Part shown: one piece after another, positions 47,150-62,877 of the stretch | How the letters are laid out: every line of letters starts with the position of its first letter | How positions within the stretch are numbered: the stretch's first letter is position 1 | IMG/VR virus record: IMGVR_UViG_3300024503_000015 | Coordinates: 1 to 64,000 of that record | DNA from: a virus | Direction: 5' to 3' (one strand) | DNA: 64,000 nucleotides | The notes under the pieces: model-generated | What the model saw: only the letters and a program-made list of their open reading frames with translations | Told to the model about the DNA's origin: nothing | The model's database searches: none | Translations under genes and position numbers: made by a program

Positions 47150-47584
47150 ATGAAAGAACAGATAGTCTGCTCTGGCGCACTTTTCTATGCCAAAAACACT
47201 AAACGATTCCTACTGCTACAAAAAGCAGAAGGCAAACACGCGGGCACATGGGGGTTAGTTGGCGGCACTAACGTCGAAGGCGAAACTGCATGGCAAGGGC
47301 TTCAACGAGAAATCGAAGAAGAAATTGGTTCTGTTCCAAAAATAATCAAAACAATTCCTATAGAAACGTTTGTTAGTAATGACAGCGTTTTTAATTTCCA
47401 CACCTACCTTTGTGTTATAGAACAAGAATTTATTCCTGTACTAAGCAAAGAGCACAATGGATGGGCATGGTCAACTGTAGATAGTTCTCCTAAACCTTTA
47501 CATCAAGGTTTGCGTAGCAGTTTTAGCAACAAAACTATCAGAACAAAATTACAAACTATTTTTGATATTGTAGAGTTAATTTAA
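47150..47584 (+). CDS. Nudix hydrolase
   Basis: 144 aa. Nudix box GGTNVEGETAWQGLQREIEEE (G-x5-E-x7-REUxEExG) is complete, preceded by GTWGLVGG. It hydrolyses nucleoside diphosphate derivatives. T4 has NudE in a different context. It is first in the island and overlaps the next gene by 1 bp, so it may clear a by-product or make a substrate, but is probably an independent moron. Confidence 0.85.
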   Translation: MKEQIVCSGALFYAKNTKRFLLLQKAEGKHAGTWGLVGGTNVEGETAWQGLQREIEEEIGSVPKIIKTIPIETFVSNDSVFNFHTYLCVIEQEFIPVLSKEHNGWAWSTVDSSPKPLHQGLRSSFSNKTIRTKLQTIFDIVELI

Positions 47585-48168
47585 TGTGGCCCATCCATCA
47601 CCAAAAACCACCAAACGAACCTTATATTTGGATTAAGAACGTTTTTACTGACGAAGAAATTGCACGTATTATTGCTATTGGTAAATCTAAGCCGTCTGTA
47701 GACGGTGGTGTCGAAAATAAAGATCAAGATGCACAATGGGCAAGACGTAGTAAAATCTCGTGGATAGGACCAGATGCTTCCACTGTTTTTATTTTTGAAC
47801 GCTTAACAGATGCTATTACAAAAGTAAACAAGGCATTTTACGACTACGAATTAACCCAGATAGAAGATTTACAATTTTCCGAATACGACGAGTCTTATCA
47901 GGGTATGTATAGAAATCACACAGACGACGGATATGATTCAAATCATTATAGAAAATTAAGTTTTACTCTACAATTATCAGACCCGAGCGATTATGAGGGC
48001 GGTGATTTAAATATCTATCGCTTTAAATTAGACGAACCAATGACAGTGAAAAAAGAAAAGGGTATGTTGGCAGCATTTCCTAGTTGGTCTATTCACGAAG
48101 TAACGCCGGTTACCAAAGGAACACGTTATACACTAGTAGGATGGGTACATGGGCCAAAGTTTCGTTAA
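47584..48168 (+). CDS. 2OG-Fe(II) oxygenase, prolyl-hydroxylase-like
   Basis: 194 aa. YRNHTDDG supplies His112-x-Asp114, SIHEVTPV gives the distal His171, and Arg181 (TRYTLVGW) binds 2-oxoglutarate. YEGGDLNIY and FPSWSIHE are typical PKHD/P4H strands. A complete HxD...H set suggests activity. Acceptor unknown: prolyl or asparaginyl residues in a protein are typical for the family. Confidence 0.85.
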   Translation: MWPIHHQKPPNEPYIWIKNVFTDEEIARIIAIGKSKPSVDGGVENKDQDAQWARRSKISWIGPDASTVFIFERLTDAITKVNKAFYDYELTQIEDLQFSEYDESYQGMYRNHTDDGYDSNHYRKLSFTLQLSDPSDYEGGDLNIYRFKLDEPMTVKKEKGMLAAFPSWSIHEVTPVTKGTRYTLVGWVHGPKFR

Positions 48169-48721
48169 CATTAAACCGGTGAATTTATGGCCTACCACTG
48201 TGTATGTTTCTGAAATACGCATTTTAGATATGCCTAGTATGATTTCTGAAATTTATAGACTACAATCCACGGAGTCTGCTGTTAAAAAATCAAACTATGG
48301 TGGCTGGCAAAGCGAAGTAAATTTATTTGACAATCCTGCGTTTGCTCAATTAACTGATGAAATAGCCAGTACTGTGTTTTGGTTGTTTAATAAAAATATC
48401 TCTATCAAACAAATGTGGGCCTGTGTTAACAAGCACAAAGATTTTAATGTAATTCACGCACATGGTAATGAATATCACCTAAGCGGCGTATTTTATTTGA
48501 AAGTTCCCGTTGACTCGGGTAATATATGCTTCAGAGATCCGAGGCCAGCGGCTATTAATTCCACTACAAATAGAATTTTTAATCAGGGTGATAGCGAAAA
48601 TTTTATTCCCTATGAAACGGAATTAATATTGTTTCCGTCATTTTTAGAACATTTTGTCATGCCCAACGAGTCACAAGAAGATCGCATTTCCGTAAGTTTT
48701 GATCTAGTCTTTGGAGAATAA
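48149..48721 (+). CDS. 2OG-Fe(II) oxygenase-like (2OG-FeII_Oxy_5 type)
   Basis: 190 aa. HAHGNEYHLSGVFYL carries His103 and His105. FPSFLEHFVMPNES provides His168 and Arg179 follows (DRISVSFD). The HxH form replaces the usual HxD, which is the standard arrangement of this family. It overlaps the preceding gene by 20 bp, implying co-translation. Confidence 0.78.
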   Translation: MGQSFVNIKPVNLWPTTVYVSEIRILDMPSMISEIYRLQSTESAVKKSNYGGWQSEVNLFDNPAFAQLTDEIASTVFWLFNKNISIKQMWACVNKHKDFNVIHAHGNEYHLSGVFYLKVPVDSGNICFRDPRPAAINSTTNRIFNQGDSENFIPYETELILFPSFLEHFVMPNESQEDRISVSFDLVFGE

Positions 48722-48723
48722 TC

Positions 48724-49377
48724 ATGTGGATGAATGACAAAATATTAATTATAGATAATTTTTACAAAGATCCTGACAAAATACGAAAGTTTGCTCTTAA
48801 TCAAGAATTTAAAAATTGTAAAGAAGCCAATGCAGGAGGCAACTGGCCTGGGCGAAGAACAAGTTTCTTACACAATCTTAATCAAGAATTGTCCGACGAA
48901 TTTCATAATGCGTTTCTTGGAAATTTATTAGAAAATAATCCTATAAAATACGGCGGATATATTGAAACAAATTTTCAACTGTGCTACGAATCCGATGGAG
49001 ATTCTTGGGTACACTACGACACGCCCACGTGGCATTGTACTCATGTTGGTGTTGTGTATTTGCATCCAAATCCTCCTGATAATTCAGGAACTTTGTTTTA
49101 CAAATTTAACGAAGAACACAGACAAGAGTTTGAAGAATATGCCGCACGTAATAATCATTTGTGGTTTAAATTAAATCGAGATCAGGACAGCAAAGAATTT
49201 CATAAATTTTTTAAACAGACAATGTCTATACCTAACGTATATAATCGTGCTATAATTTATGGACCAAATGCTTGGCACAAATCGGATAGGTATTTTGGTT
49301 CAACGCCTGAGACGGGTAGACTATTTCAACCATTTTTCTGTAACCTTAATTTTATATATGATGAACAAGAAACCTAA
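48724..49377 (+). CDS. DUF6445-like protein (oxygenase-fold relative)
   Basis: 217 aa from MWMNDKILII, with a GGAG Shine-Dalgarno. WVHYDTPTWHCTHVGVVYLHP, SGTLFYKF and RAIIYGPNAWHKSDRYFGS (in parts) match the DUF6445 layout, which as I recall often neighbours tryptophan halogenases in bacteria. A His-x-Asp (HYD) is present near residue 97. It supports functional linkage with the halogenases downstream. Confidence 0.65.
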   Translation: MWMNDKILIIDNFYKDPDKIRKFALNQEFKNCKEANAGGNWPGRRTSFLHNLNQELSDEFHNAFLGNLLENNPIKYGGYIETNFQLCYESDGDSWVHYDTPTWHCTHVGVVYLHPNPPDNSGTLFYKFNEEHRQEFEEYAARNNHLWFKLNRDQDSKEFHKFFKQTMSIPNVYNRAIIYGPNAWHKSDRYFGSTPETGRLFQPFFCNLNFIYDEQET

Positions 49378-50008
49378 ATTAGCCATATACGGGGATAGTT
49401 TTTCAGATCCGTCGTGGGTACAAAACGACTATTTGTCGTGGCCTGAGATGTTAGAACAGAAATACACTGTCAAAAATTATTCTCTTACAGGTTCTAGCAT
49501 GTGGTGGAGTTATGATAAATTTTTAGAAACTCACGCCAGTTACGATTTGGCAATATTTGTGGTAACAGTTCCGGGCAGAATTCATGTAGAATATAACAAT
49601 AAGCATTTGAATTTAAATCCTAGTACATGGCCAGTATGGGATGGCATTAACATTGGAGAAATGTATTTTAGGTACTTTTATTCCAGCAAACGAGAAACTG
49701 CGTTTCATAATTTTATGGTTAATGACATATTACAGTATCAGGATGTGTTAGTTGTCCCTGCATTTTTAGAAAGTTTGCCTAATTTAAATTCTTGGTCATT
49801 GTGCCACTATGCTGATTTAGAATTACAATTCTATGGTCTAGATCATCCAGGTAACAATGAAAACAGAAAATGTCATTTAACCAAAGAAAATAATCTTATG
49901 GTATACAACAAAATTATCAATGCTATTGATAATAAGGATCAAATTTTAAAATTAAATCCTGAAGATTTTGTGCAACCTGCGGATCCTATGGAATGTTATT
50001 GGAAATAA
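49361..50008 (+). CDS. SGNH/GDSL-like hydrolase
   Basis: 215 aa from MNKKPKLAIYGDSFSD; a longer frame begins inside the previous gene and is not used. GDSF block I (nucleophile Ser13), a block with Gly in LTGSSMWW, VVTVPGR in place of the Asn block, and a C-terminal His (KCHLTKENN) give a Ser-His pair. The reaction is probably esterase or acyl transfer on a glycan or modified residue. Substrate unknown. Confidence 0.6.
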   Translation: MNKKPKLAIYGDSFSDPSWVQNDYLSWPEMLEQKYTVKNYSLTGSSMWWSYDKFLETHASYDLAIFVVTVPGRIHVEYNNKHLNLNPSTWPVWDGINIGEMYFRYFYSSKRETAFHNFMVNDILQYQDVLVVPAFLESLPNLNSWSLCHYADLELQFYGLDHPGNNENRKCHLTKENNLMVYNKIINAIDNKDQILKLNPEDFVQPADPMECYWK

Positions 50009-50009
50009 T

Positions 50010-50591
50010 ATGAAGGAAGATTACAAAGTTATCAAAGGATTTGCAGATGCAGATACTTGCAATCGTATGGTTGAAAAATTAGACGACTTTTATAAAAAAG
50101 GTTATAACTTGCCGCCGGATAATCAGTGTCCGTCTAGTCCTACTTTTTATGGAATTTTTAATGACGAATCAAAATTGTGGTTACCTAAAATAGAAGAACT
50201 AGTGGAAAAGAAGTTATTTCCAACATACACTTACTCAAGGATTTATACAAAAAATGAAGCGTTAAATCCACATATCGATAGGTTTGAGTGCGAATATAGT
50301 TTTACACTTACTTTAAAATACGATAAAAATATATGGCCCATTTATGTTCAGTCTGGCAATAGAGGGCATGAAATTTTATTAGACGTTGGAGATATCTTAA
50401 TTTATAAAGGTGTTAAAAATCTACACTGGCGGCATGCGTTAGAAAATGATTTTCACTATCAGGGGTTTTTCCATTATGTAGATAAGCAGGGTCCTTATTC
50501 TGATAGAAGATTTGACGGACGACATAGTTTTGCGTCCACACAAGAAGTAATAGACGAAGTAATTAGGAGAAGAAATGTATTACAACAGTGA
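50010..50591 (+). CDS. 2OG-Fe(II) oxygenase-like protein
   Basis: 193 aa from MKEDYKVIKG at 50010, one nt after the previous stop (50006-50008). PHIDRFECEYS gives His88-x-Asp90 and KNLHWRHALE gives His139 with Arg141. DVGDILIYKG is the typical strand before the distal His. Substrate unknown. Confidence 0.75.
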   Translation: MKEDYKVIKGFADADTCNRMVEKLDDFYKKGYNLPPDNQCPSSPTFYGIFNDESKLWLPKIEELVEKKLFPTYTYSRIYTKNEALNPHIDRFECEYSFTLTLKYDKNIWPIYVQSGNRGHEILLDVGDILIYKGVKNLHWRHALENDFHYQGFFHYVDKQGPYSDRRFDGRHSFASTQEVIDEVIRRRNVLQQ

Positions 50592-51174
50592 ATATCAATA
50601 CATGACATTTGATGTTCCGCATGTTGTTGAAAATATTGCAGACATTCAACGCATGACAGACATAGGTATTGATAAATTTAAAAGAAAATTTAATGCACGT
50701 AATTATGCTGTTGGCACAGACAACATTACCTGGCAGTTTGCTAACTATAATGTGTTTGGTCTTTGTTCTTGTAATCAATGGTTCTATGATATCTATACAA
50801 GTTTAATCGACGGAATTAGACAATATCACGAACTAGCGGGTATCGAAAAGCCAAAACAACTATGGTTGCAGGCTTGGATTAACAGTCATAAAAATGGACA
50901 GGTTCTTAAAACACATAATCATGATTGGCCTTTACACGGATTTATGGCTATAGATCCTAAGAAAAGTCATACTGTGTTTACAGATAAGCCTAACGGCAAA
51001 GAGTTGTACAGAGTTGAAAACAAAGTAGGACAGTTTTACATAGGCCCTGGTAGTAGATTTCATCATGTAGAAATTTTAGAACCGTACGAGGGTGAACGAA
51101 TTACATTTGGATTTGACTTAGAGCATCGAGATAGAATTTTTGATAACATGGGATTTATTCCAATTATTATATGA
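50575..51174 (+). CDS. 2OG-oxygenase/cupin-like protein
   Basis: 199 aa. WLQAWINSHKNGQVLKTHNHDWP has His114 and His116. FYIGPGSRFHHVEIL gives His163/His164, and ERITFGFD has Arg175. The fold is that of a double-stranded beta-helix, though the strand before the distal His is unusual. It overlaps the previous gene by 17 bp and shares ATGA with the next. Confidence 0.68.
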   Translation: MYYNSEYQYMTFDVPHVVENIADIQRMTDIGIDKFKRKFNARNYAVGTDNITWQFANYNVFGLCSCNQWFYDIYTSLIDGIRQYHELAGIEKPKQLWLQAWINSHKNGQVLKTHNHDWPLHGFMAIDPKKSHTVFTDKPNGKELYRVENKVGQFYIGPGSRFHHVEILEPYEGERITFGFDLEHRDRIFDNMGFIPIII

Positions 51175-51809
51175 GTTATTATCAAACATTTAATTCGTTT
51201 GGCTATATTATTGAAGACGTTCCTAAAGAAATTATGGACACTTTGTGGAAGGAAGTTAAAGAAATACAAAAAGACTTTGACCATGCTTCTGCTACTAACC
51301 ACACGTTGGCTGGTAATATTCAGAGAGAATATTCATTAAAAGACTCCATTTCGGTAGTAGAGCCATTTGCATTTAATGTAGCCGAAACTTATAACGAGCT
51401 GTTCAAATATAATTCTAATATCAGCGTGTTTAAACCAGGGCGATTAGATTTCGCTGTAGACACACTATGGGTTAATTTTCAGAAAAAATATGAATTCAAT
51501 CCAGCGCATACACATCTAGGTCTATATAGTTTTGTAATATACTTACAAATTCCATATGACCTCAATGAAGAGTTGGCTGCAAGTCCTGGGGTAAACTCTA
51601 ATAAAAATCTAGCATCAGCATTTGAATTTTTCTATGTAAATTCGTTTGGTAAAATAACTAAAAATCCTATATTCATGGATAAGACATGGGAAGGGAAAAT
51701 GTTGTTGTTTCCAGCAGAATGTATGCACGAAGTACACCCATTTTATACGTCCGACGATTACAGGATTTCCGTAGCAGGTAATATTGCTATCCAAGCCGGA
51801 TCTAAGTAA
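51171..51809 (+). CDS. 2OG-Fe(II) oxygenase-like protein
   Basis: 212 aa. AHTHLGLYSFVIYL gives His113-x-His115. GKMLLFPAECMHEVHPF gives His186 (His189 close), and DYRISVAGNI has Arg198. Internal strand WVNFQKKYEFNP. An HxH member; substrate unknown. The next gene has a separate leader and its own late box. Confidence 0.72.
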   Translation: MSYYQTFNSFGYIIEDVPKEIMDTLWKEVKEIQKDFDHASATNHTLAGNIQREYSLKDSISVVEPFAFNVAETYNELFKYNSNISVFKPGRLDFAVDTLWVNFQKKYEFNPAHTHLGLYSFVIYLQIPYDLNEELAASPGVNSNKNLASAFEFFYVNSFGKITKNPIFMDKTWEGKMLLFPAECMHEVHPFYTSDDYRISVAGNIAIQAGSK

Positions 51810-51825
51810 ATCACAAAAATACCCC

Positions 51826-51833
51826 ACTAAATA
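51826..51833 (+). promoter_or_regulatory. Late-type box ACTAAATA inside the island
   Basis: The leader of about 21 nt carries AAGGAG before the ATG at 51860. It restarts transcription for the second half, including all four halogenases. Confidence 0.6.
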
Positions 51834-51859
51834 TTGTCGAATTAAGGAGAATTACATAT

Positions 51860-52471
51860 ATGTCTAACAAATTACCAGAAATTTTTTATCTCGAAAACGT
51901 TGCAAAGCAAGATGTTTTTGCTAACATTATTGCAGATTTAAACGACGGAGTTTGGAAATACGGTGTTATAAAAATTAATGCCGCTGGCTTTGATATCGAA
52001 GATAACGCAAACTTTTGGTCTGTAGATATGGTTAAAAATCGTTGGACAGAAGTATTATTTCAGGATATTATTGACAAACTCGAAGCACTAGATCCTAGAG
52101 TCAAAGGTTATAACTTTAAAAGTCTTGACGTTGTTGCCGGCGGCAAAACATTTGGCCTAGACGGAAATATACACGTTGACAGAGAGTTTGAATTTAATTC
52201 AAACGGCGACGGTTATATGACAATGTGTTATTTTCCTAATAAAGAATGGAGCCCGGAATGGGGCGGTGAACTGCAATTTTTTGACAATCAAGGAAATATT
52301 ATAGCCAGTTATTATCCAATGCCTAATACTTGTATTGTATTTGACAGTAACATTCCTCACAGAGGCCTTGCTCCTAACAGAAATTGTACAGAATTAAGAA
52401 AATATATTTCTTTTAAGACGTTTGTTAATAAGTTTGATTTTAGTGGCGATATTGAAGCCGAAGTTAAATGA
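51860..52471 (+). CDS. 2OG-Fe(II) oxygenase, HxD type
   Basis: 203 aa with an AAGGAG leader. GNIHVDREFEF holds His105-x-Asp107, SNIPHRGLAP holds His167, and LRKYISFK Arg180. MCYFPNKEWSPEWGGELQFFD (in parts) is the P4H-type core strand. A complete HxD...H set. Shares ATGA with the next gene. Confidence 0.82.
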   Translation: MSNKLPEIFYLENVAKQDVFANIIADLNDGVWKYGVIKINAAGFDIEDNANFWSVDMVKNRWTEVLFQDIIDKLEALDPRVKGYNFKSLDVVAGGKTFGLDGNIHVDREFEFNSNGDGYMTMCYFPNKEWSPEWGGELQFFDNQGNIIASYYPMPNTCIVFDSNIPHRGLAPNRNCTELRKYISFKTFVNKFDFSGDIEAEVK

Positions 52472-53241
52472 TTCAAAATTTATTTGCGTTACCTATCTAC
52501 AAAACTAATATTTTTGACTCTGATATAGACTTTGGAGTCATAAGGTCTACGCTTGAACAACAATACAAGGAAATAAAATTTCATGTTGGGTTGGAAAAAA
52601 ATGGCGGTATAAGTACCTACGGCACTAATAGAAATTTGCATGAAGTACCAGAATTTAAAGCATTGTGCGATTTAATTTTGTATCATGCAAATTTATATTG
52701 GAAAGTCCTGGATATCAACGACGGTCTGCGCCCTGCAATAGACGAGTGCTGGTCTAATAAACACGTTAACGGTAGTTTTACTGACTGGCATTCTCATAGT
52801 ATGCACCCTATTGTTGTAAGTTTTTATCTAAGTGCTCCTGAACGTAGTGGAGGAATAGTGTTTACTAATCCTATGGAATACAGTATTACACACATTCCTT
52901 ACAATCGTCCTGTAGAAGAAAAAATTAATACCACAATTCATATTAAATCAGGCGATGTGTTAATGTTTCCTGGATGGTTGAGACATAAAACTGAAGTAAG
53001 TCACACTGATGATGAACGTATAGTAATCACATTTAATTTAAGATACAGCGGAGTATACTTAGATTCTCAACAACCATATCCGGTCGTTAAAGAAACTACA
53101 ATGCCTGATAATTTTTCAACTCCCGTAATAGTGGAATCGAATAACAGTACCATGGATTATTTGTTTAATAAGTTACATACTCAGGAAATTATTATAAATC
53201 AATTAAAAGCAATGCTCACTGGAGGCGCTGATGGAAGATAA
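52468..53241 (+). CDS. 2OG-Fe(II) oxygenase-like with C-terminal tail
   Basis: 257 aa. DWHSHSMHPIVVSFYL has His108 and His110. VLMFPGWLRHKTEV has His173 and ERIVITFN Arg184. About 45 extra C-terminal residues end in a helix (YLFNKLHTQEIIINQLK). The 2OG-FeII_Oxy_5 pattern is clear (SGGIVFTNP). Overlaps the next gene by 11 bp. Confidence 0.78.
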   Translation: MIQNLFALPIYKTNIFDSDIDFGVIRSTLEQQYKEIKFHVGLEKNGGISTYGTNRNLHEVPEFKALCDLILYHANLYWKVLDINDGLRPAIDECWSNKHVNGSFTDWHSHSMHPIVVSFYLSAPERSGGIVFTNPMEYSITHIPYNRPVEEKINTTIHIKSGDVLMFPGWLRHKTEVSHTDDERIVITFNLRYSGVYLDSQQPYPVVKETTMPDNFSTPVIVESNNSTMDYLFNKLHTQEIIINQLKAMLTGGADGR

Positions 53242-53497
53242 AAAAGTACCTCGTGTTATAAGAAACCTTGATACATCGCAACGTAGAGTTCACTTCAACG
53301 AAAAAATTTTACTAGTCCCAAGAGAAGTAGAACAAAAACGTTTAGAAATATGCAATAACTGTAAGTCGTATGAAAATTACGGCTGTACTATTACTGGATA
53401 TTTTATGCCCAAGACCGTAAGAAATAAATCACAAAGTTGTCCTTATGGTAAATGGACTAGTTGGTATAGTTTTAATGATAATTTTAAGGACGAATAA
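53231..53497 (+). CDS. Small Cys-cluster protein
   Basis: 88 aa. Four Cys (Cys41, 44, 52, 70) in ICNNCKSYENYGCTITGYF...KSQSCPYGKW, a compact zinc or Fe-S site seen in many phage proteins of unknown role. Sits between an oxygenase and the first DUF6065-like gene, overlapping both. Confidence 0.6.
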   Translation: MEDKKVPRVIRNLDTSQRRVHFNEKILLVPREVEQKRLEICNNCKSYENYGCTITGYFMPKTVRNKSQSCPYGKWTSWYSFNDNFKDE

Positions 53498-54258
53498 TGT
53501 CAGTTGTAAAAGTAGGATATACTCCATGGTTTGAAAAATCTCCAAATACTAGCGGACTGGGTCCGCTAAATTATTACGGCTGGAACGAAATTATTCATTT
53601 TGATTTAGAAAAGTTAGACACATGGAAAGATTCAAAAGTAGGATTTATGAAATGCCCTGCATTTGTAAAGTATAACGAACAAACATGGGTAATACGTTCT
53701 TTAATTGATGTAGAATTGCACTGGGACAAATATAATAAAGTTTTAAGCAGTAATCTTCCAAGTCTTGCACACGATGCTATGGTCAAAGTTCACTGGGGAG
53801 ATTTTAATCCTGAAGTTGATAAACCTATAGTTGCATTAAACAGCGCCATGCTGTTCTATGCAGACGAAGAAGTATGGGTAGACTTTTTACCTCCTTATAA
53901 TCATATCGATTTAAGATGGAGATTGATGCCTGGCAGTTTTAATATTTGTAATTGGCAACGTCCGCTGGTTCCTACTTTTGAAATGCTCAATGACAGAATT
54001 GAATTTAAGAGAGGACAGCCGTTAGCCTATGTAAGATTTAGAGCAAGAGACCCACAGGCAATGTTTCAATTAAACAAACAACCAAGAACAGAAGAACTCG
54101 ATCATATTGTAAATTCTTCTGTGTCTCTTAAATCATATCAAAACAATTTAAGTTGGAAAATTGTGTCGGGGGTCATTCCAAATAGATTACGTCCAAAGAA
54201 ATTAGTAAAATCAGAACCTTGGATTTGTAGATTCTTTAGAAGGATCTTAAAAAAATGA
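53497..54258 (+). CDS. DUF6065-like protein A
   Basis: 253 aa. FMKCPAFVKYNEQTWVIRSLIDVEL (in parts), DLRWRLMPGSFNICNW and FKRGQPLAYVRFRA match the order found again in the gene at 60260: CPAxxxY...VI...DxE near residue 45, then GxPL about 60% along. A beta-rich, non-catalytic looking fold. The two copies bracket the four halogenases, so a partner role (substrate carrier or adaptor) is inferred. Confidence 0.6.
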   Translation: MSVVKVGYTPWFEKSPNTSGLGPLNYYGWNEIIHFDLEKLDTWKDSKVGFMKCPAFVKYNEQTWVIRSLIDVELHWDKYNKVLSSNLPSLAHDAMVKVHWGDFNPEVDKPIVALNSAMLFYADEEVWVDFLPPYNHIDLRWRLMPGSFNICNWQRPLVPTFEMLNDRIEFKRGQPLAYVRFRARDPQAMFQLNKQPRTEELDHIVNSSVSLKSYQNNLSWKIVSGVIPNRLRPKKLVKSEPWICRFFRRILKK

Positions 54259-55715
54259 TCAAGTCCGTTTGCATATTAGGTGGAGGTACTAGCGGACTAA
54301 TAACGGCACTAGTACTCAATAAGTGGTATCCTACCATGGATATTAAAATTATCGAGTCTCCCACTATAGGTATTGTCGGCGTCGGAGAAGGTAGTACAGA
54401 ACATTGGAAACAGTTTATTAATACTGTAGGGATTACTCTACAAGAATTAATGTTAGAAACTGGTGCTACTTTCAAAGCAGGTATTAGATTTGAAAATTGG
54501 AATGGTGACGGCACATTTTATATGCACGCTCTACATGCCGATTATACGCAACTAATGGGTAACGGGTTGCCAGGAGTAATGGTCAAATTAATTTCTGAAG
54601 ATCAGCCGCACTTATATCCAGATAATGTCATTAATTCCATACATTACTTTCCTATCGATGCCAGTGTAAATCAATATCATTTTGATACGTTTAAACTTAA
54701 TAAATTTTTACACAAGAAATGTATCGAACGCGGAGTAGTTGTTGTTGAAGATGATATAGACGACGTTGAAATTGACAGTCAAGGATACATTAGTTCTTTA
54801 ATTAACAAAGACGGTGTCAAATATACAGCAGATTTCTTTGTAGATTCTTCTGGGTTCAGAAGAGTCATTAGTTCTAAACTTGGCGCAAAGTGGAATGATT
54901 GTAAAGAATATTTACCCATGGACAGAGCGTTTGCTTTTCCTACACCCAGTGACGACGAGTTTCCAAGTTGGACCCTGAGTCGTGCATTATCCAGCGGATG
55001 GTCATGGAGAATACCAACGCAAGAACGCTATGGCAACGGTTACGTTTATTCCAGTGAATTTTTATCCGACGATCAAGCATTGTCTGAAATGCAACAGTAC
55101 TATAAAGATCCTATACAAGTAGGTAAAAGTTTTAAGTTTAGTGCAGGTTATGTTGATAAATTCTGGATTAAAAATTGTGTTGCAGTAGGTCTTGCTGGAA
55201 GTTTTGTTGAACCTCTCGAGGCTACTAGCATAGGAACTAGTATTCAACAGGCGTTTGCACTAGGATCAGCACTGGCATCTTGGACTAAAGGCAACGAAAA
55301 AATAGCGGACAAATATAATCAACAATTTGAAGCAGTTGCTAAAAACATTATTGACTTTGTACAGTTACATTACATCACTCAACGTAACGATACACCATTC
55401 TGGCGTAGTTGCAAAGATTTAAAGTTGACCGAGTTTAATAAAGATACACTGGAACACTTTAAAACAGTTGTGCCAAGTAGAGCATATTTTCCCAGTCACT
55501 GGGTGTTATTTACAGAACAGAACTGGTTACAAGTATTACACGGTTTAAAATTATTTGATATAGAAAAAATAAAACAAATATGGATGTCTCAGGATCCCTC
55601 TGTTATTACTGAAACAGATAAAATATACGACAATATATTATTATACCAACGCGATGCTCTTAAATTTAATCACAGAGGCGCAATTGAATTCTTAGCAAAA
55701 GAAGTGAAACGATGA
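54255..55715 (+). CDS. Flavin-dependent tryptophan-halogenase homologue 1
   Basis: 486 aa. FADH2-dependent halogenases of the PrnA/RebH type oxidise chloride or bromide and halogenate indole rings. GGGTSG (9-14) binds FAD. The catalytic-Lys position K74 (ATFKAGIRFENW), the WxWxIP hallmark WSWRIP (249-254) and VEPLE with Glu322 are all present, so it looks active. A separate flavin reductase is needed; none is seen, so the host must supply it. Shares ATGA with both neighbours. Confidence 0.9.
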   Translation: MIKSVCILGGGTSGLITALVLNKWYPTMDIKIIESPTIGIVGVGEGSTEHWKQFINTVGITLQELMLETGATFKAGIRFENWNGDGTFYMHALHADYTQLMGNGLPGVMVKLISEDQPHLYPDNVINSIHYFPIDASVNQYHFDTFKLNKFLHKKCIERGVVVVEDDIDDVEIDSQGYISSLINKDGVKYTADFFVDSSGFRRVISSKLGAKWNDCKEYLPMDRAFAFPTPSDDEFPSWTLSRALSSGWSWRIPTQERYGNGYVYSSEFLSDDQALSEMQQYYKDPIQVGKSFKFSAGYVDKFWIKNCVAVGLAGSFVEPLEATSIGTSIQQAFALGSALASWTKGNEKIADKYNQQFEAVAKNIIDFVQLHYITQRNDTPFWRSCKDLKLTEFNKDTLEHFKTVVPSRAYFPSHWVLFTEQNWLQVLHGLKLFDIEKIKQIWMSQDPSVITETDKIYDNILLYQRDALKFNHRGAIEFLAKEVKR

Positions 55716-57211
55716 AAACCATCGCAATATTAGGCGGAGGAAGTGCTGGCTGGTTAACTGCTTTGTTTGTTAAACAAGTGTGGCCTGCCTGCGATGTGAC
55801 AGTAATAGAAGACCCTAATACTCCACCTATTATTGCTGGAGAAAGTGGTTCCGCATCCCTTAATAAACTATTCAACTTTTTAGAAATTCCGTTTGATGAC
55901 TGGATAGTGTCTGTAAATGCCATGCCTAAACTCGGCGGCAAATTTGTAAATTGGAACGGAATAGGAACAGAGTTTGTTCATGGGCTTATACCAGACTGGT
56001 ATAGATTAGACTTTAATGCTAAGTTTCCAGAGTTTGGATTGGGTAATGATTTTTTAGCCTGTTCATTGGCGGAAGGCATACCTACTGAAAAAATATTCTA
56101 CAACGGATCGTTACAGCGTGTGAATAAATTGCCTATCAGTCCTAGTAGTGTAGGTAAATTTAATGTTATTACACTACCTATGTGGCACTTCGACAGCCGC
56201 GCCAATGCCGACTATATGAAACGTCGCGGCATAAGCAAGGGGATTAAACTAATCGAAGGCAAGTATATTAAATCTAATAAAGCACTCAACGGTGACATTG
56301 ATTCTATTACATTAGATACTAGGGATCAAATAAATGCAGATTGGTTTTTTGATTGCTCCGGATTCGCCAGACTACTTCTACAAAAAGAATTAAATGAACC
56401 TTTTAAGGATTTAAGCGAATATTTTCCTGCTAGGGCAGTTGTAGCATGGTGGAACGAGCCTGTACTTAAAAATTATACCGAAATGACAGCATTGAAAAAT
56501 GGATGGTCTTGGAATATTAATTTAAAACATAGGGCAGGTAATGGATACATTTACGACCCCGACAGAATTACTGCGGATCAGGCAATAGACGAAGCAGAAA
56601 AATATTTTAATATAAAGATAGATCCGGTGGCTAATTTAAAATTTACACCTGGGTTGTTTTTAAATTCTTGGAAAAATAATGTAATTGCCGTTGGAATTAG
56701 TTCGGGATTTTTAGAGCCGTTGGAGTCGAACGGACTAGCATCTGTTGCTGAACAATTAAAAATATTGTCAGAATTTTGGTCTCCCGACAGTAATACCGTG
56801 TATGAACAAAAATCATTTAATGACAAATATCAAAAAATAATGTTTGATATCAGCGATTTCCTTTCACTACATTATCGAGGACACAGAAATGATTCCGATT
56901 TTTGGCAGGATCATAACTCTAATCCACAGCGTATATCGGCGTCATTACAGCATAAATTAGATCTATGGAAATCTGGATCATTAGGTATCGACAATACAGA
57001 AGTATATGCTTTAGAAAATTATGCAGTTGTTATCCAAGGACTGGATTTAATCAATAAAGACAAACTTAGACAACGTCTATTATCCAAACGGTCAACTATA
57101 TTTGAAGACTTTCACCAATCATACCAAAAATTATCTAACGATGTTGACAACATAACATCAATCTGCTATACTTTAGAAGAATGGGTAAAATTGGTTTATG
57201 AAAACAATTAA
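55712..57211 (+). CDS. Flavin-dependent tryptophan-halogenase homologue 2
   Basis: 499 aa. FAD motif GGGSAG (8-13), Lys73 (AMPKLGGKFVNW), Glu338 (LEPLES) retained. The hallmark WSWNIN (265-270) has Asn for the Pro. This region normally blocks the monooxygenase side reaction, so specificity could be altered. The substrate loop differs from homologue 1. ATGA overlap with 54255, 14-bp overlap with the next. Confidence 0.88.
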   Translation: MKTIAILGGGSAGWLTALFVKQVWPACDVTVIEDPNTPPIIAGESGSASLNKLFNFLEIPFDDWIVSVNAMPKLGGKFVNWNGIGTEFVHGLIPDWYRLDFNAKFPEFGLGNDFLACSLAEGIPTEKIFYNGSLQRVNKLPISPSSVGKFNVITLPMWHFDSRANADYMKRRGISKGIKLIEGKYIKSNKALNGDIDSITLDTRDQINADWFFDCSGFARLLLQKELNEPFKDLSEYFPARAVVAWWNEPVLKNYTEMTALKNGWSWNINLKHRAGNGYIYDPDRITADQAIDEAEKYFNIKIDPVANLKFTPGLFLNSWKNNVIAVGISSGFLEPLESNGLASVAEQLKILSEFWSPDSNTVYEQKSFNDKYQKIMFDISDFLSLHYRGHRNDSDFWQDHNSNPQRISASLQHKLDLWKSGSLGIDNTEVYALENYAVVIQGLDLINKDKLRQRLLSKRSTIFEDFHQSYQKLSNDVDNITSICYTLEEWVKLVYENN

Positions 57212-58694
57212 AAGTATAATAGTATTAGGTGGCGGCACCAGCGGATTAATTACTGCCTTGATGTTAAAAAGGCAACATGAACATTTAGATATTAAAGTTA
57301 TCGAAAGTTCTTCCGTTGGAGTTATAGGTGTAGGGGAAGGCGCTACAGAACATTGGAGATACTTCTGCGAAACTATAGGTGTTAGGTTAGAAGATACGCT
57401 GGTTGCCTGCGATGCTACTCTTAAAACAGGAATAAAATTTAGTAATTGGGGTGTGCCTGATTACTGGCATGCTACCTGTGAACCTTATGCAAGACCCGCT
57501 GGAGATTATCTAGCAGTTTACGCTAAATTAATTGCAGAAGGTGCTGGTCCTTTAGACATTATTCAAAAACGTACAATCGATAGCACAGTACCCGAAGATT
57601 GGGTAAATCTTAATGTTCCTTGCCCTGTTAATCAATTTCATTTCAATACATTTTCCACCAACGACTACTTACATAAGTTGTGTAAAGAAAGAAACATTCC
57701 TACAATAGATGATAAAATTGTAGATGTAATCTTAGACGACAACGGATATGTTAAAGAACTAATTGGAGAAAATGCCGTACACTCGGCAGATTTCTTTGTT
57801 GACTGTTCTGGTTTTGCCAAAGTGATAATGAAAAAACTTGGAGCAAAGTGGGAAAGTTATAAAGATAATCTTTGGGTTAATAGTGCTATTGCATTTCCTA
57901 CAGAAGATACAGACGAATATCCAATTTACACCAGCGCAACCGGTATGGATTATGGTTGGATGTGGAATACTCCCGTACATGGTCGATGGGGCAACGGCTA
58001 TGTGTTCAGTGACAAGTACATAGATTTCGACCAGGCGCAGGCAGAAGTCGAAGCAAAGTTAGGTAGAAAAATAAACATAGCAAAGAAAATCAAGTTTGAT
58101 GCAGGTAAACTTGACCGCACTTGGATTAAAAACTGCGCTAGTATCGGCTTATGTTCTAGTTTTGTAGAGCCACTAGAAAGTAGTGCCATTAGTCAAACTA
58201 TTTTGCAGACTTTTTTAATTATGAATTTATTGCCTAGTTGGACCAACAGTCCAGACGAAGTGGCCGGAATATACAATAAACGAGTAGACGACATCTGCGA
58301 AAATATTTTAGATTTTATTGCAGTACATTACTACGTACCCAGAGAAGATACAGCATTCTGGAAGGATCTTAAAAATAACAGAGACACCTGGGTACCTAAA
58401 AGATTAAAAGATAATTTAGAAAAGTGGAGCAAACGACTGCCATTGGTATTAGAATTTGATCAAAAGTATGTACTGTTTACTGCTGATAATTGGATAGTTA
58501 CATTACACGGATTAAATCTCTTAAATCCAGAACGTGTCAAACATGAATATATGATGCTGACTCCGGAAATTAGACAGCATTGTGATAGGATTGTCGACGA
58601 ACAAAAACATTTAGAAAATACATTACCTCATATTCCACATAAAGTAGGTCTTGAAAAATTTATAGGTAATTATAATAAAGCCTTAGGAAAATAA
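57198..58694 (+). CDS. Flavin-dependent tryptophan-halogenase homologue 3
   Basis: 498 aa. FAD motif GGGTSG (11-16), Lys76 (ATLKTGIKFSNW), Glu327 (VEPLESS). WMWNTP (254-259) has Thr for Ile in the hallmark. Closest by eye to homologue 1 (shared IGVGEGxTEHW, FVEPLE). Functional but diverged; possibly a different ring position or substrate. No flavin reductase nearby. Confidence 0.88.
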   Translation: MKTIKSIIVLGGGTSGLITALMLKRQHEHLDIKVIESSSVGVIGVGEGATEHWRYFCETIGVRLEDTLVACDATLKTGIKFSNWGVPDYWHATCEPYARPAGDYLAVYAKLIAEGAGPLDIIQKRTIDSTVPEDWVNLNVPCPVNQFHFNTFSTNDYLHKLCKERNIPTIDDKIVDVILDDNGYVKELIGENAVHSADFFVDCSGFAKVIMKKLGAKWESYKDNLWVNSAIAFPTEDTDEYPIYTSATGMDYGWMWNTPVHGRWGNGYVFSDKYIDFDQAQAEVEAKLGRKINIAKKIKFDAGKLDRTWIKNCASIGLCSSFVEPLESSAISQTILQTFLIMNLLPSWTNSPDEVAGIYNKRVDDICENILDFIAVHYYVPREDTAFWKDLKNNRDTWVPKRLKDNLEKWSKRLPLVLEFDQKYVLFTADNWIVTLHGLNLLNPERVKHEYMMLTPEIRQHCDRIVDEQKHLENTLPHIPHKVGLEKFIGNYNKALGK

Positions 58695-58695
58695 A

Positions 58696-60267
58696 ATGTC
58701 AAAAATCAATAGCATAGTTGTAGTCGGAGGTGGTAGCGCCGGTTGGATGACTGCCGCAACTCTTATAAAATTCTTTCCAGAAAAAACTATCTCTTTAATT
58801 GAAAGTGCAGATGTTCCTACTGTAGGGGTGGGCGAAAGCACATTAGGTCAAATTAATGAATGGCTACACATACTTGATATTAAAGAAGACGATTTTATGA
58901 AATACACAGATGCTGGTCTTAAGATGAGCATCAAATTCACAGACTGGGCAGGCAAAGGATCTGGTGGATTTCATTATCCTTTCGGAGACTCCTGGAATGT
59001 GGGAACAGTATTCGGTGTAAACGACTGGTTTATTAAAAAGGCCAAGTATCCTGGAACTCCAAATACAGATTTTGCAGAGTGTTTCTTTCCCGCTATGCAG
59101 TTAGTTAATCAAAATAAAATTATTAAAAATGAAAATGATGAGCTACCTGGTTGGCGCTACGACAGCGATGTGGCTTATCACTTTGATGCTACTAAGTTTG
59201 GTATGTGGCTACGTGAAGAATATTGTAAGCCCCGAGGAGTTCAGCATATTGTAGGCACTATCAAAGAAGATATCGAAACTGATAGCGCAGGTGTTAAGTG
59301 TGTTGAGCTAACTACAGGTGAAAAAATCACAGCAGATTTATACATCGACTGCACAGGTTGGAAAAGTCTACTACTAGGAAAAGCACTAGGTGTGCCATTC
59401 GAGAGTTATTCAGACATACTACCCAATAACAGCGCATGGGCAACTAGAATGCCTTATACAGACAAAGAAAGTCAGTTGGAACCTTACACTAACTGTACTG
59501 CTATTGAACACGGCTGGGTGTGGAATATTCCCTTATGGTCTAGAATTGGTACTGGTTATGTATTCAGTGATGCTTATGTATCCAACGAAGATGCGTTAGA
59601 AGAATTTAAACGTTACTTGAAGGAAAATAATCCTGCAGATTTAATCGACACATTAGAATTTAAATTAATTAAAATGCGTGTAGGTATTCACGAAGAACTC
59701 TTCCATAAAAATGTTTGTGCTATTGGACTAAGTGCAGGATTCATAGAACCATTAGAGTCTAATGGCTTGTTCACCGTACACGAATTTTTGCATAGATTAG
59801 TTAAAACTTTATCTCGCGATGATATAAGTTTAATTGATAAAGTTGGATTTAACGAAGCAAATCGAGGAGACTTCAGAGCGTTTGCAGAGTTTGTAAGTAT
59901 GCACTACTTATTAAGCCAACGCAGTGACACTCAATATTGGAGAGATGCTAGAGAGCGTAAATTTAATAATGGAAAAAGAATTCCAGGTGACTTTTTAGGG
60001 TATGGATTTGATAATGCCATCTTTAAAAGAGATGTTCAATCAATGTACGACTCAAGTACAGGTGGCGCACTTTTCATTGCCGCTGGATTAAATTATTTCC
60101 CTATTACAGAATCAGTTATCAAACGATCAGAATTTAAATTTAATAGACGGTTAGATTATGTTAATGATTCATTTGATATTTGGGAGTCAAATAAAACTTA
60201 TTGGAAAAAGATTGCAGATGCCGCTCCTACTTTATATCAGTTCTTAAAAGACAAGTATAATGTTTAA
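58696..60267 (+). CDS. Flavin-dependent tryptophan-halogenase homologue 4
   Basis: 523 aa, the longest. FAD motif GGGSAG (11-16), GVGESTLG, Lys76 (AGLKMSIKFTDW), complete WVWNIP (274-279) and Glu354 (IEPLESN). All key residues intact. It has an extra 60-80 residues in the substrate lid (PFGDSWNVGTVFGVNDW). It is closest to PrnA-like enzymes by eye. One nt between it and homologue 3. Confidence 0.92.
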   Translation: MSKINSIVVVGGGSAGWMTAATLIKFFPEKTISLIESADVPTVGVGESTLGQINEWLHILDIKEDDFMKYTDAGLKMSIKFTDWAGKGSGGFHYPFGDSWNVGTVFGVNDWFIKKAKYPGTPNTDFAECFFPAMQLVNQNKIIKNENDELPGWRYDSDVAYHFDATKFGMWLREEYCKPRGVQHIVGTIKEDIETDSAGVKCVELTTGEKITADLYIDCTGWKSLLLGKALGVPFESYSDILPNNSAWATRMPYTDKESQLEPYTNCTAIEHGWVWNIPLWSRIGTGYVFSDAYVSNEDALEEFKRYLKENNPADLIDTLEFKLIKMRVGIHEELFHKNVCAIGLSAGFIEPLESNGLFTVHEFLHRLVKTLSRDDISLIDKVGFNEANRGDFRAFAEFVSMHYLLSQRSDTQYWRDARERKFNNGKRIPGDFLGYGFDNAIFKRDVQSMYDSSTGGALFIAAGLNYFPITESVIKRSEFKFNRRLDYVNDSFDIWESNKTYWKKIADAAPTLYQFLKDKYNV

Positions 60268-60994
60268 AAAGAAACAAGAACCGATTATTACATTTACTTG
60301 TAGAGAGTGGGCTATAAGGACTCACGCTCCTGTGTTGCCTGCTGGAAACTTTTTGCCTAAAGAATATGAAGAATTGCATCCTGGAAACATTTGTCCGTTT
60401 GATCATTTTAATTCTGCATCGTTGTTAAGTGTAAGATTATGTCCTGCGGTAAACAATTATTTGCAGGCAGGGTATGTTATTCCGGCATGGTGCGATATTG
60501 AAATAAAATTTCAAAACGACCAATATCATGTAAACTACAGTAATTTAAACTATCAACATAGAACACATCCTGAAGAACAGTTTGGTGAGATGTTTAATAG
60601 ATTTAAATTTAGAACAGATATTAAAATTGACAATCCGTGGAGTATCTATACAGCACCTGGGTATAGTTTAATGTGGATGCCTATGTGGTTTCATAATGCA
60701 AATTATCAAGCAGTACCTGCTATTGTAGATTCTGACAGAGTGCCAAATCATAATCCAATTAATATCATGTTGTTCGAACCCAAGGACACATTAATTAAAA
60801 TGGGCGATCCGTTAGTTCAAGTTATTCCATTTAAGAAGGAAACTATTACCGCCGTTAGCAGAGAATATAACGAATCTGATGCTAAAAGAAAAGACTCCTT
60901 GTTGGGACTAGGACAGTTAAGCAGATATGGCTGGAGACAATTTATAAAAAATAAAGTTAATTATCTATTAGATAGGAAAGATTTAGACTTATGA
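60260..60994 (+). CDS. DUF6065-like protein B
   Basis: 244 aa. RLCPAVNNYLQAGYVIPAWCDIEI (in parts) aligns with protein A at 53497, and LIKMGDPLVQVIPF with its second half. Trp-rich centre (SLMWMPMWFHNANYQ). Function unknown; shares the operon and the halogenase-flanking position with A. ATGA overlap with the next gene. Confidence 0.6.
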   Translation: MFKKKQEPIITFTCREWAIRTHAPVLPAGNFLPKEYEELHPGNICPFDHFNSASLLSVRLCPAVNNYLQAGYVIPAWCDIEIKFQNDQYHVNYSNLNYQHRTHPEEQFGEMFNRFKFRTDIKIDNPWSIYTAPGYSLMWMPMWFHNANYQAVPAIVDSDRVPNHNPINIMLFEPKDTLIKMGDPLVQVIPFKKETITAVSREYNESDAKRKDSLLGLGQLSRYGWRQFIKNKVNYLLDRKDLDL

Positions 60995-61629
60995 TTGGTA
61001 GTGCTAAGTCCAAAGAATTTTTTAAATTTCAAGATTCTTTAAAACCTCAGATATCATTCGATGATATTATAGTTATTGACGACGTGATTAATCACATGTA
61101 TCAAGATGATCTTGAAAAAACACTATTAAGCGAAATGAGTATTCCTTGGTTTTTATTGGACGACATTACATACTCTAATACTAGAAAAGTTAAAAAACAA
61201 AATCTTGGACTAGTGCATCCTATAGTGCCAACATTTAATGGCATGAGTCCTGTGTATAATTTATTATTACCGCTGTTATATGAAGCATTGACAAAAATTG
61301 ATTTTAAATTGTCGAATATAATTCAAGCCAGATCTTTTTTACAATTTCCCACAGAACAAACCAGCATTAATAATCCGCACGTTGATGACAACATACCGCA
61401 CATAGTTTGTCTTTATTATGTCAATGACAGCGATGGCGATACAATAATATATGATCAAACCACAGATATTGTGCCCAATGTTCCTGGCATTAATGAAGAA
61501 GTGTTTACTATCAAACAACGAGTAACTCCCAAAAAAGGACGAGTAGTATTGTTTAACGGAAAACATTATCATAGCAGTAGTACTCCTACACAAGGAAGAC
61601 GTTGTATTATAAATTTTGATGTGGAATAA
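60991..61629 (+). CDS. 2OG-Fe(II) oxygenase-like, paralogue pair member 1
   Basis: 212 aa. NPHVDDNIPH supplies His130-x-Asp132, GKHYHSSSTP His194, and Arg203/204. KQRVTPKKGRVVLFNG (about 174-190) recurs almost unchanged in the next gene (KRVTPKKGRVAIFNG), showing recent duplication. HxD set complete. Confidence 0.82.
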   Translation: MIGSAKSKEFFKFQDSLKPQISFDDIIVIDDVINHMYQDDLEKTLLSEMSIPWFLLDDITYSNTRKVKKQNLGLVHPIVPTFNGMSPVYNLLLPLLYEALTKIDFKLSNIIQARSFLQFPTEQTSINNPHVDDNIPHIVCLYYVNDSDGDTIIYDQTTDIVPNVPGINEEVFTIKQRVTPKKGRVVLFNGKHYHSSSTPTQGRRCIINFDVE

Positions 61630-61630
61630 A

Positions 61631-62305
61631 ATGATAGATATAAATGAAATTTTAGTATTAGATGATGTTATCTGTCCGCAGTATCAGGATATGATAGAAA
61701 ATTGGTTATTATCTCCGTCTAGTACTTGGCAGTTTTCTCGAGATGTTGCATTAGCAGACAACGTGATTGACAAACTAGATTTAAAAACTAAACCTGGTTT
61801 TGCAAAATCGTTTTATAGTGTAAGAACTGGATCTACTAGTGATTTGTATCCTATGATTTTACCTATGGTGTTTGAATCTTTTCATAAGGCAAATCTGCCA
61901 TTTGATAATGTATTGTTTTCAAGAAGTTTTTTAACATTTCCTGTGCCTGGATGCGGTCCTAACGACTTTGATCATATTCATGTAGACACTCCTGAAGATC
62001 ATATGGTGTGTTTATATTATGCCAGCGACAGCGATGGCGGCGATACTGTATTTTTTGATAAAACAGTAAAGGATATTTTAGAAACGCAGGAAATAAAGGC
62101 CCAATTAGAGGGCAAAGATCTAACATTTTATGATCAAACTATTCTGGAATTGATCGATAGTCAAGTTGATAAGACTAATTTTAGTGTTATTAAAAGAGTA
62201 ACTCCAAAAAAGGGAAGGGTAGCAATATTCAACGGTGCAAGGTATCATAGTGCGGCTAGATGCAATAGCGGTCACCGTTTAGTTGTTAATACGTGTGTAA
62301 GATGA
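61631..62305 (+). CDS. 2OG-Fe(II) oxygenase-like, paralogue pair member 2
   Basis: 224 aa from MIDINEILVLDD at 61631; upstream in-frame starts lie inside the previous gene. FDHIHVDTPEDH gives His117-x-Asp119, RYHSAARCNS His206, HRLVVNT Arg216. A 25-residue insert (EIKAQLEGKDLTFYDQT) relative to its paralogue. ATGA overlap with the next gene. Confidence 0.82.
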   Translation: MIDINEILVLDDVICPQYQDMIENWLLSPSSTWQFSRDVALADNVIDKLDLKTKPGFAKSFYSVRTGSTSDLYPMILPMVFESFHKANLPFDNVLFSRSFLTFPVPGCGPNDFDHIHVDTPEDHMVCLYYASDSDGGDTVFFDKTVKDILETQEIKAQLEGKDLTFYDQTILELIDSQVDKTNFSVIKRVTPKKGRVAIFNGARYHSAARCNSGHRLVVNTCVR

Positions 62306-62877
62306 TAATATCAGTTGGTGCTATTCCTGTAGGAATATTTGAATGGAAAGAATTTACCGATCACAAAGATGCGATTGTTGATCTATGCCTTAGAGAAGAA
62401 AAACCTAATGTCATAGAATCTAATATTGCACCTAAGGTTAAAACAAACTTATGGGAATCTAATTTTAGTTTCTTACAGCAACATTCAGAGTTAAAAGCTC
62501 TTGATACTTGGTTAAACAGTACTACTAGAGACTTTGTTAATGCTGTAAACAAATCGGATTATCATATAGCAATTACAGAAAGTTGGGCACACGTTACTCG
62601 TCCATTGGGTCAGCATGAACCACATAGACACCCAGACTCTACCTGGAGTGGTATATTTTATATAGATGCCGATGAGCCGCAGAGCGGAAATAATATATGG
62701 TTTAATATGTTTAAGTTGCCCGAACGTCCCGGGCTAGAATTTTTTGATGAAAATTTCTCTGCAGAATTTATTCCTGGACGCTTAATAATATTCCCAAGTA
62801 TAATGTTGCATTATGCAAAACCATACTTGGGAAAAGATAGAAGAATATTAATTGCGTTTAATAGTGTCTGTGTTTAA
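62302..62877 (+). CDS. 2OG-Fe(II) oxygenase-like (2OG-FeII_Oxy_5 type)
   Basis: 191 aa from MIISVGAIPVGIFE. EPHRHPDSTWSGIFYI has His108 and His110, PSIMLHYAKPY His170, and DRRILIAFN Arg180/181. Clear family pattern. Last gene of the + strand island; its stop interlocks with the convergent fibre gene. Confidence 0.8.
   Translation: MIISVGAIPVGIFEWKEFTDHKDAIVDLCLREEKPNVIESNIAPKVKTNLWESNFSFLQQHSELKALDTWLNSTTRDFVNAVNKSDYHIAITESWAHVTRPLGQHEPHRHPDSTWSGIFYIDADEPQSGNNIWFNMFKLPERPGLEFFDENFSAEFIPGRLIIFPSIMLHYAKPYLGKDRRILIAFNSVCV

Follow-up and report, generated by a model that had tools for sequence, protein, structure and literature searches.

The window analyzed here is the first 64 kb of the 270,181-bp IMG/VR virus record IMGVR_UViG_3300024503_000015. 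It holds an island encoding four flavin-dependent halogenases and eleven 2-oxoglutarate (2OG)-Fe(II)-oxygenase-type proteins, placed between a gene for a gp3-like tail sheath stabilizer (45706 to 47136) and a minus-strand fiber region. The record comes from a marine, T4-like jumbo phage, as gp3, sheath, terminase, UvsX, and gp32-like genes were all found in it, and its terminase is nearest (55%) to that of the Pseudomonas PA5oct/Paride group, which belongs to a different family from the Kyanoviridae cyanophages. A total of 20 plus-strand genes occupy the interval, rather than the 22 counted in an earlier sequence-only reading of this DNA, which was right to describe them as co-directional and mostly overlapping; intergenic gaps run from -29 to +2, apart from 50 bp before OG5 and 13 bp before the Nudix gene. 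The island proper spans 47584 to 62877 (plus strand, 19 genes), with the Nudix gene in front, and no T4-type late promoter (TATAAATA) was found upstream of it. Pfam searches recognized tailoring enzymes only, with no synthase, carbamoyltransferase, glycosyltransferase, or transporter within the island. The genes are as follows (P4H, prolyl 4-hydroxylase).

47150 to 47584, plus: Nudix hydrolase (PF00293, E 5e-15; a 38% orthologue lies beside gp3 in Paride)
47584 to 48168, plus: OG1, P4H-like 2OG-Fe(II) oxygenase (PF13640, E 7e-17, above cut-off; HTD...H...R)
48149 to 48721, plus: OG2, 2OG-Fe(II) oxygenase (PF13759, E 2e-19)
48724 to 49377, plus: DUF6445 protein, probable 2OG-Fe(II) oxygenase (PF20043, E 3e-14; invariant H97, D99, H185, and R199)
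49358 to 50008, plus: SGNH-like hydrolase, weak match
50010 to 50591, plus: FCh, PHROG "ferrochelatase," predicted P4H-fold 2OG-Fe(II) oxygenase (phrog_2954; structure model and Foldseek)
50575 to 51174, plus: OG3, probable 2OG-Fe(II) oxygenase (PF13759, E 0.0015, sub-threshold; phrog_2696, 1e-45; phrog_81, 4e-7)
51171 to 51809, plus: OG4, 2OG-Fe(II) oxygenase (PF13759, E 9e-11)
51860 to 52471, plus: OG5, 2OG-Fe(II) oxygenase (PF13640, E 9e-9)
52468 to 53241, plus: OG6, 2OG-Fe(II) oxygenase (PF13759, E 1e-14)
53231 to 53497, plus: 88-aa Cys-containing protein, DUF6171-like (E 8e-5, sub-threshold; kept in the lineage)
53497 to 54258, plus: U253, distant paralogue of U244 (phrog_17480, 7e-18; phrog_7084, 9e-4)
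54255 to 55715, plus: Hal1, flavin-dependent halogenase (PF04820, E 2e-104)
55712 to 57211, plus: Hal2, flavin-dependent halogenase (PF04820, E 2e-87)
57198 to 58694, plus: Hal3, flavin-dependent halogenase (PF04820, E 1e-90)
58696 to 60267, plus: Hal4, VirX1-clade halogenase (PF04820, E 4e-105)
60260 to 60994, plus: U244, dUTPase-like beta-clip fold, recurrent halogenase neighbor (phrog_7084)
60991 to 61629, plus: OG7, 2OG-Fe(II) oxygenase (PF13640, 3e-5; phrog_61, 8e-12; "DNA endonuclease V," phrog_274)
61616 to 62305, plus: OG8, 2OG-Fe(II) oxygenase, paralogue of OG7 (33%, blastp 1e-32; PF13640, 4e-5)
62293 to 62877, plus: OG9, 2OG-Fe(II) oxygenase (PF13759, E 2e-15)

Halogenases and oxygenases of the island

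Hal1 to Hal4 are encoded by four consecutive genes and match PF04820 over most of the profile length (E 2e-87 to 4e-105; 294 to 353 bits against a cut-off of 21), with no further PF04820 match elsewhere in the whole record. All four keep the GxGxxG motif for flavin adenine dinucleotide (FAD), the catalytic Lys, and the Glu of EPLE. On each of these points the sequence-only reading holds up, and the retained residues speak against the inactive flavoproteins for which it had allowed. The catalytic Lys is shared by all 99 phage homologues. The WxWxIP motif is intact in Hal1 and Hal4 and reads WSWNIN in Hal2 and WMWNTP in Hal3; in Hal1, an Ala follows the Glu (EPLEA). All four halogenases are held by strong purifying selection, since synonymous divergence (dS) from their closest relatives is saturated while nonsynonymous divergence (dN) is 0.22 to 0.32 (dN/dS ~0.1 or less).

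A tree of 99 phage sequences placed Hal4 in a 22-row clade with Syn9 gp42, the counterpart of Syn10 VirX1 (Shimodaira-Hasegawa-like approximate likelihood ratio test support of 99), and Hal2 in an 8-row clade (support of 100) found only in multi-halogenase islands; Hal1 and Hal3 fell in separate parts of the P-SSM2-type clade. A recent tandem duplication was considered and rejected, given pairwise identities of 25 to 41% and separate clades that are common to different phages. The best PDB match of Hal4 was the VirX1 chain, 6qgm (residues 1 to 520, E 9e-104), which is the second of two tandem Syn10 halogenases, with no mismatch past the first residue. The VirX1 gene of Syn10 lies immediately upstream of U244, as does Hal4 in the window. 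VirX1 is active in vitro, where it halogenates with a preference for iodide, and its large, accessible active site takes many bulky substrates (PMC8407142). Through this characterized homologue, Hal1 to Hal4 are predicted to be active flavin-dependent halogenases; no flavin reductase (PF01613) was found in the whole record.

All eleven oxygenase-type proteins (OG1 to OG9, FCh, and the DUF6445 protein) carry the HxD/HxH...H...R/K set, and the earlier count of ten 2OG-fold proteins plus a DUF6445-like one stands. Six (OG1, OG2, OG4, OG5, OG6, and OG9) score above a 2OG Pfam cut-off, while OG3, OG7, and OG8 fall under the Pfam cut-offs yet match 2OG PHROGs; the DUF6445 protein passes the cut-off of its own family, PF20043, not that of a 2OG profile. 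Support for membership therefore comes from Pfam or PHROG for nine proteins, from fold for FCh, and from the motif for the DUF6445 protein. FCh had no Pfam match. Its AlphaFold2 model (predicted local distance difference test [pLDDT] of 88) has prolyl hydroxylases as its best PDB matches (Foldseek E 4e-9, probability 1.0), including the P. putida P4H solved with EF-Tu and PHD2, and points to FCh really being a P4H-fold 2OG-Fe(II) oxygenase, not a ferrochelatase. An hhalign comparison of the DUF6445 protein with OG1 was not significant, and that of FCh with OG1 was likewise undecisive; the DUF6445 protein is a probable 2OG-Fe(II) oxygenase. The PHROG names "ferrochelatase" (phrog_2954), "DNA endonuclease V" (phrog_274), and "minor coat protein" (phrog_1644) are attached to 2OG-like proteins and are spreading into RefSeq; the first needs correction to a 2OG enzyme, and the other two look wrong too.

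Other 2OG genes lie outside the island. The window contains a further PF13759 2OG-Fe(II) oxygenase at 8579 to 9205 (minus strand, E 3e-19). Elsewhere in the record, at about 151.5 to 152.2 kb, a PF13640 2OG protein (L160:2013-2696, minus strand) sits, by eye, beside a gene resembling QueE, the 7-carboxy-7-deazaguanine synthase, a neighbor that hints at deazaguanine metabolism. At about 218 to 219.5 kb, a weak PF13759 protein (L161:1813-2996, minus strand) adjoins, by eye, a ClpP-like protease gene.

The modeled structure of U244 (pLDDT of 74) matches dUTPases, with a beta-clip fold (Foldseek probability 1.0, E 6e-5). The dUTPase catalytic motifs are not kept in the window protein, whose motif-3 region reads PAIVDSDRVPNH, and no Pfam family matched it at an E value of 0.1 or better. 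The S-CREM1 homologue, which matches the U244 profile at E 5e-37, is annotated as a triphosphate nucleotidohydrolase, and no relative was confirmed in bacterial genomes. In the haloarchaeal tailed viruses HSTV-2 and HF1, U244 homologues (E 1e-34; L106:8845-9714 and L107:7917-8801) lie near baseplate genes without halogenases. The SGNH-like hydrolase named in the sequence-only reading comes down to a sub-threshold PF16822 match (E 0.028) and a GDS motif. A cluster for a ribosomally synthesized and post-translationally modified peptide was also considered and rejected, as no leader-bearing precursor was found; the genes overlap without a small open reading frame between them, the smallest being that of the 88-aa Cys-containing protein.

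Conservation of the island beside tail-fiber adhesins

Hal1 was recovered at 100% identity in eight IMG/VR contigs, and over the length of each contig the gene order is the same. Relatives at 46 to 75% identity (L114 to L117, L119, L130/L156, and L157) keep that order with small gains and losses and carry three or four halogenases, and a distinct group (L033 and L035 to L038) has up to four halogenases interleaved with 2OG genes. With its order unchanged in independent assemblies and similar in diverged relatives, the island is real and more than chance. The closest jumbo phages in culture (PA5oct/Paride) have no island at this site; the Paride locus runs from gp3 through Nudix and one unrelated gene to a minus-strand fiber-like gene. 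Because PA5oct-like phages that have no halogenase carry Nudix next to gp3, the Nudix gene is ancestral and the remaining 19 genes are lineage specific; the Nudix hydrolase listed in the sequence-only reading is thus present but probably lies outside the module. Among cultured phages, Syn9 and Syn10 have two halogenases, S-RIM44 two plus one elsewhere, P-TIM40 two, and S-CREM1 and Sf-FR1 one each. The sequence-only reading named only single prnA-like genes in cyanophages, which the tandem pairs followed by 2OG genes in Syn9, Syn10, S-RIM44, and P-TIM40 contradict. It had also counted the presence of such a run in cultured phages as a refutation, and this is so in part, as tandem pairs with 2OG genes, whereas the four-halogenase set was found only in uncultured contigs.

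The genes flanking the island in the window are the following.

44099 to 45706, plus: virion structural protein, left flank (phrog_11591, E 1e-81)
45706 to 47136, plus: tail sheath stabilizer, T4 gp3-like, left flank (phrog_11196/phrog_227; 34% to PA5oct-like phages)
62874 to 63515, minus: phrog_1787 protein, probable tail-fiber chaperone, right flank (homologues between adhesins and halogenases in Syn9, S-RIM44, and L035)
63524 to 64000, minus: first of three Gly-rich gp38-type tail-fiber adhesins (phrog_863, tail fiber assembly, E 7e-45 to 6e-35)

The run of three adhesins, which are 20 to 23% Gly overall and match phrog_863, reaches position 66911 of the record and is followed by a gene for a 3,835-aa fiber protein. 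A PDB sequence search gave no useful match for the adhesin or for the phrog_1787 protein, which by position and size is a probable tail-fiber chaperone. Comparable Gly-rich tip proteins bind host receptors: gp38 of PP01 recognizes OmpC (PMC12892980), and in Pam3 the chaperone gp25 folds gp24 (PMC9608196). In the window lineage (L114 to L117 and L157), the order is gp3, [Nudix], island, phrog_1787 gene, three Gly-rich adhesins, and fiber. The cultured phages Syn9, Syn10, S-RIM44, Sf-FR1, and S-CREM1 have adhesins, chaperone homologue, halogenase(s), U244, and 2OG genes; P-TIM40 has the Syn9-type order with extra genes, and the L033 to L038 group has adhesins, chaperone, and four halogenases. 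In single-halogenase contigs (L062 to L101), the operon follows collagen-like fibers (up to 106 GXY triplets) and Gly/His-rich proteins.

Some individual proteins of these neighborhoods stand out. Three Gly/His/Asn/Pro-rich proteins just upstream of the halogenase operon (L093:6316-7956, L086:5625-7502, and L082:6508-8124) contain repeats like NPHPAGHNPHVAG and stretches very rich in His, Trp, and Tyr, with almost no database match. A 264-aa Cys/Trp/Gly-rich protein (phrog_4205; L143:2376-3167) is encoded upstream of a tandem halogenase pair. The second adhesin of Syn9, gp39 (L102:5675-6944), appears frame-shifted, its Gly domain continuing in another frame.

The association was quantified in 45 non-redundant halogenase loci, each with at least 8 kb of flank, where a Gly-rich neighbor was defined as a gene within 8 kb that has at least 22% Gly in a 120-residue window. 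Such a neighbor was present at 34/45 halogenase loci versus 2/28 terminase-anchored loci (Fisher P = 6e-9, a value that overstates independence, as the loci are relatives of one another, with the terminase control drawn from a single viral clade), and at 10/47 anchors elsewhere in this genome. Given that relatedness and the single-clade control, more weight belongs to the size of the effect than to the P value. All GenBank records with this adhesin subfamily (8/8) also match a VirX1-type search, and 0/40 records listed for a related single-copy adhesin are among the 60 listed halogenase records.

Two S-RIM44 isolates, Np_42_0711 and Sn_08_0709, provide a natural experiment, with flanks 95.8% and 96.6% identical around different blocks. 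In Np_42_0711, the block consists of three Gly-rich adhesins, a chaperone-like gene, a pair of halogenases, U244, and several 2OG genes. Sn_08_0709 instead has one 2OG protein, a tip protein of 12% Gly, and another small gene bearing a chaperone-type motif. Among the S-RIM44 records, U244 and the adhesin appear in precisely the five that have three halogenase places and not in the four that have one. Gains and losses of the adhesins take with them the halogenases, U244, and most of the 2OG enzymes.

Fiber tips as a candidate target

The sequence-only reading had proposed a coupled tailoring system acting on a peptide, a metabolite, or Trp residues of the phage's own fiber or capsid. Coupling is borne out by the tight operon, the conserved module, the intact catalytic residues, and the active homologue VirX1. 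As to the target, we infer an adhesin or fiber as the substrate, together with the residues that would be changed and the benefit, and consider the chances evenly balanced that the system halogenates and hydroxylates the phage's own fiber tips. The fiber target is backed by synteny and by co-swapping with adhesins, whereas capsid Trp finds no support: Trp makes up 0.6% of halogenase-associated adhesin Gly domains versus 1.6% of those without halogenases, and because it is rare in adhesins, Tyr, His, Asn, or Pro are likelier sites. Somewhat more tentatively, phages may add halogen and hydroxyl groups to their own receptor-binding adhesins or collagen-like fibers, with up to four site-specific halogenases per virus, in a cassette inherited with the adhesin.

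The island would then be an enlarged version of a module that recurs in phages and modifies receptor-binding proteins during or after synthesis. The phage would produce Gly-rich tail-fiber tip adhesins as substrate, the halogenases, with reduced flavin from the host, would halogenate aromatic residues (Tyr, His, or Trp), and the P4H-like and PF13759-like 2OG-Fe(II) enzymes would hydroxylate side chains such as Pro, Asn, and His. A separate site for each enzyme would account for the retention of divergent paralogues next to one another. U244, with its dUTPase fold, is perhaps an accessory or docking factor, and the likely benefit would be chemical variation or hardening of receptor-touching loops. 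The modeled likeness of FCh to protein-acting prolyl hydroxylases and the bulky-substrate active site of VirX1 (PMC8407142) also favor fiber tailoring.

Several observations weigh against fiber tips as the target. The low Trp content is one, and an "aromatic-rich target" was rejected, as Gly-domain His, Tyr, and Trp together reach 10.9% in halogenase-associated adhesins versus 12.0% in halogenase-less ones. Columns invariant only in halogenase-associated adhesins do exist (Tyr, 21/21; His, 21/21), and ancestry could explain them. U244 occurs without a halogenase in haloviruses and S-RIM4, and halogenases lie away from fibers in S-B64, in the third S-RIM44 copy, and in 11/45 contigs. Fiber loci are general hot spots of gene turnover, and linkage alone could be hitchhiking.

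The main rival is metabolite or surface-glycan tailoring, in which the enzymes would make a halogenated, hydroxylated small molecule or decorate a host or phage-encoded polysaccharide during infection. Iyer et al. in 2021 proposed this for a 10-gene cluster of the jumbo cyanophage S-SSM6a with a halogenase, 2OG enzymes, and carbamoyltransferases (PMC7824862), and the window has a separate low-GC cluster at 14372 to 18364 (minus strand) with Glyco_transf_25, FkbM methyltransferase, and Glyco_transf_8 genes, possibly for fiber or surface-glycan glycosylation. The island itself, however, has no recognized synthase, carbamoyltransferase, glycosyltransferase, or transporter, and this rival leaves the Gly-rich adhesin link and the joint S-RIM44 swap unexplained; we regard it as possible but unlikely. 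We give less credence to hitchhiking, in which the fiber locus exchanges accessory cassettes whose enzymes act on something unrelated to fibers. Fiber regions are hypervariable, Nudix shows that a position may be inherited with no tie to the module, and some halogenases are located elsewhere, but halogenase, U244, PF13759/PF13640 2OG, FCh, and DUF6445 genes recur by the same adhesin class in unrelated phages and in both orientations, as a set not mixed with random genes.

LodB and QhpG act on Trp residues inside proteins. The idea that the PF04820 proteins are flavin-dependent residue oxygenases of that kind, not halogenases, draws on weak NCBIfam matches to both (best E ~3e-9, far below cut-off) and is improbable, given the Lys in every phage homologue, the EPLE Glu in all four window proteins, and in vitro halogenation by VirX1, of the same clade as Hal4 (PMC8407142). 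Chlorination of free Trp as a step to a pyrrolnitrin-like antibiotic protecting the infected host, proposed in cyanophage papers by analogy with PrnA (PMC2984593 and PMC9964418), is highly improbable, as no other prn-type gene was recognized in the island, such a pathway would not call for four divergent halogenases and eleven 2OG enzymes, and VirX1 prefers iodide and accepts many bulky substrates (PMC8407142).

Relation to known systems

The individual parts of the island are known, and cultured phages carry partial versions of the operon. Hal4 aligns end to end with VirX1 of the Syn10/Syn9 operon, with U244 directly downstream in both, and Syn9 and Syn10 likewise have tandem halogenases followed by 2OG, DUF6445, and FCh genes beside fiber genes. 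Their two halogenases both belong to the Hal4/VirX1 clade, whereas the window, from a PA5oct-like jumbo phage, has four that fall in several clades. S-CREM1 and S-RIM44 share with the window an adhesin, a chaperone-like homologue, a halogenase, U244, and many 2OG genes in one run; they have one or two halogenases, and their genes have been published only as separate prnA and 2OG auxiliary genes, not as a module. Like PrnA and RebH, Hal1 to Hal4 have the PF04820 fold, FAD motif, Lys, and Glu, but they are distant in sequence and have no antibiotic pathway around them. The window adhesins resemble gp38-type adhesins (T2, S16, PP01, and Pam3 gp24 with gp25) in their Gly-rich, phrog_863-type tips and small chaperone-like gene, and differ from those of T2, S16, PP01, and Pam3 in occurring in three copies with an enzyme island.

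The literature treats phage prnA and 2OG genes separately (PMC3037559, PMC2984593, PMC9964418, PMC9146016, PMC7824862, and PMC10452541) and gives them roles in DNA repair, nitrogen signaling, antibiotic protection, and secondary metabolism. No paper linking them to fibers was found in the searchable literature, which is mostly without subscription papers, where the adhesin-linked module, the co-swapping, and the form with four halogenases also appear to be undescribed. These genes have so far been catalogued as auxiliary metabolic genes, and the adhesin link gives one testable answer for all of them. If it is true, halogenation of viral receptor-binding proteins would add a new class to the post-translational modifications of phages, the module would be a source of protein-acting halogenases, and phages would have a chemical means to diversify or stabilize host recognition.

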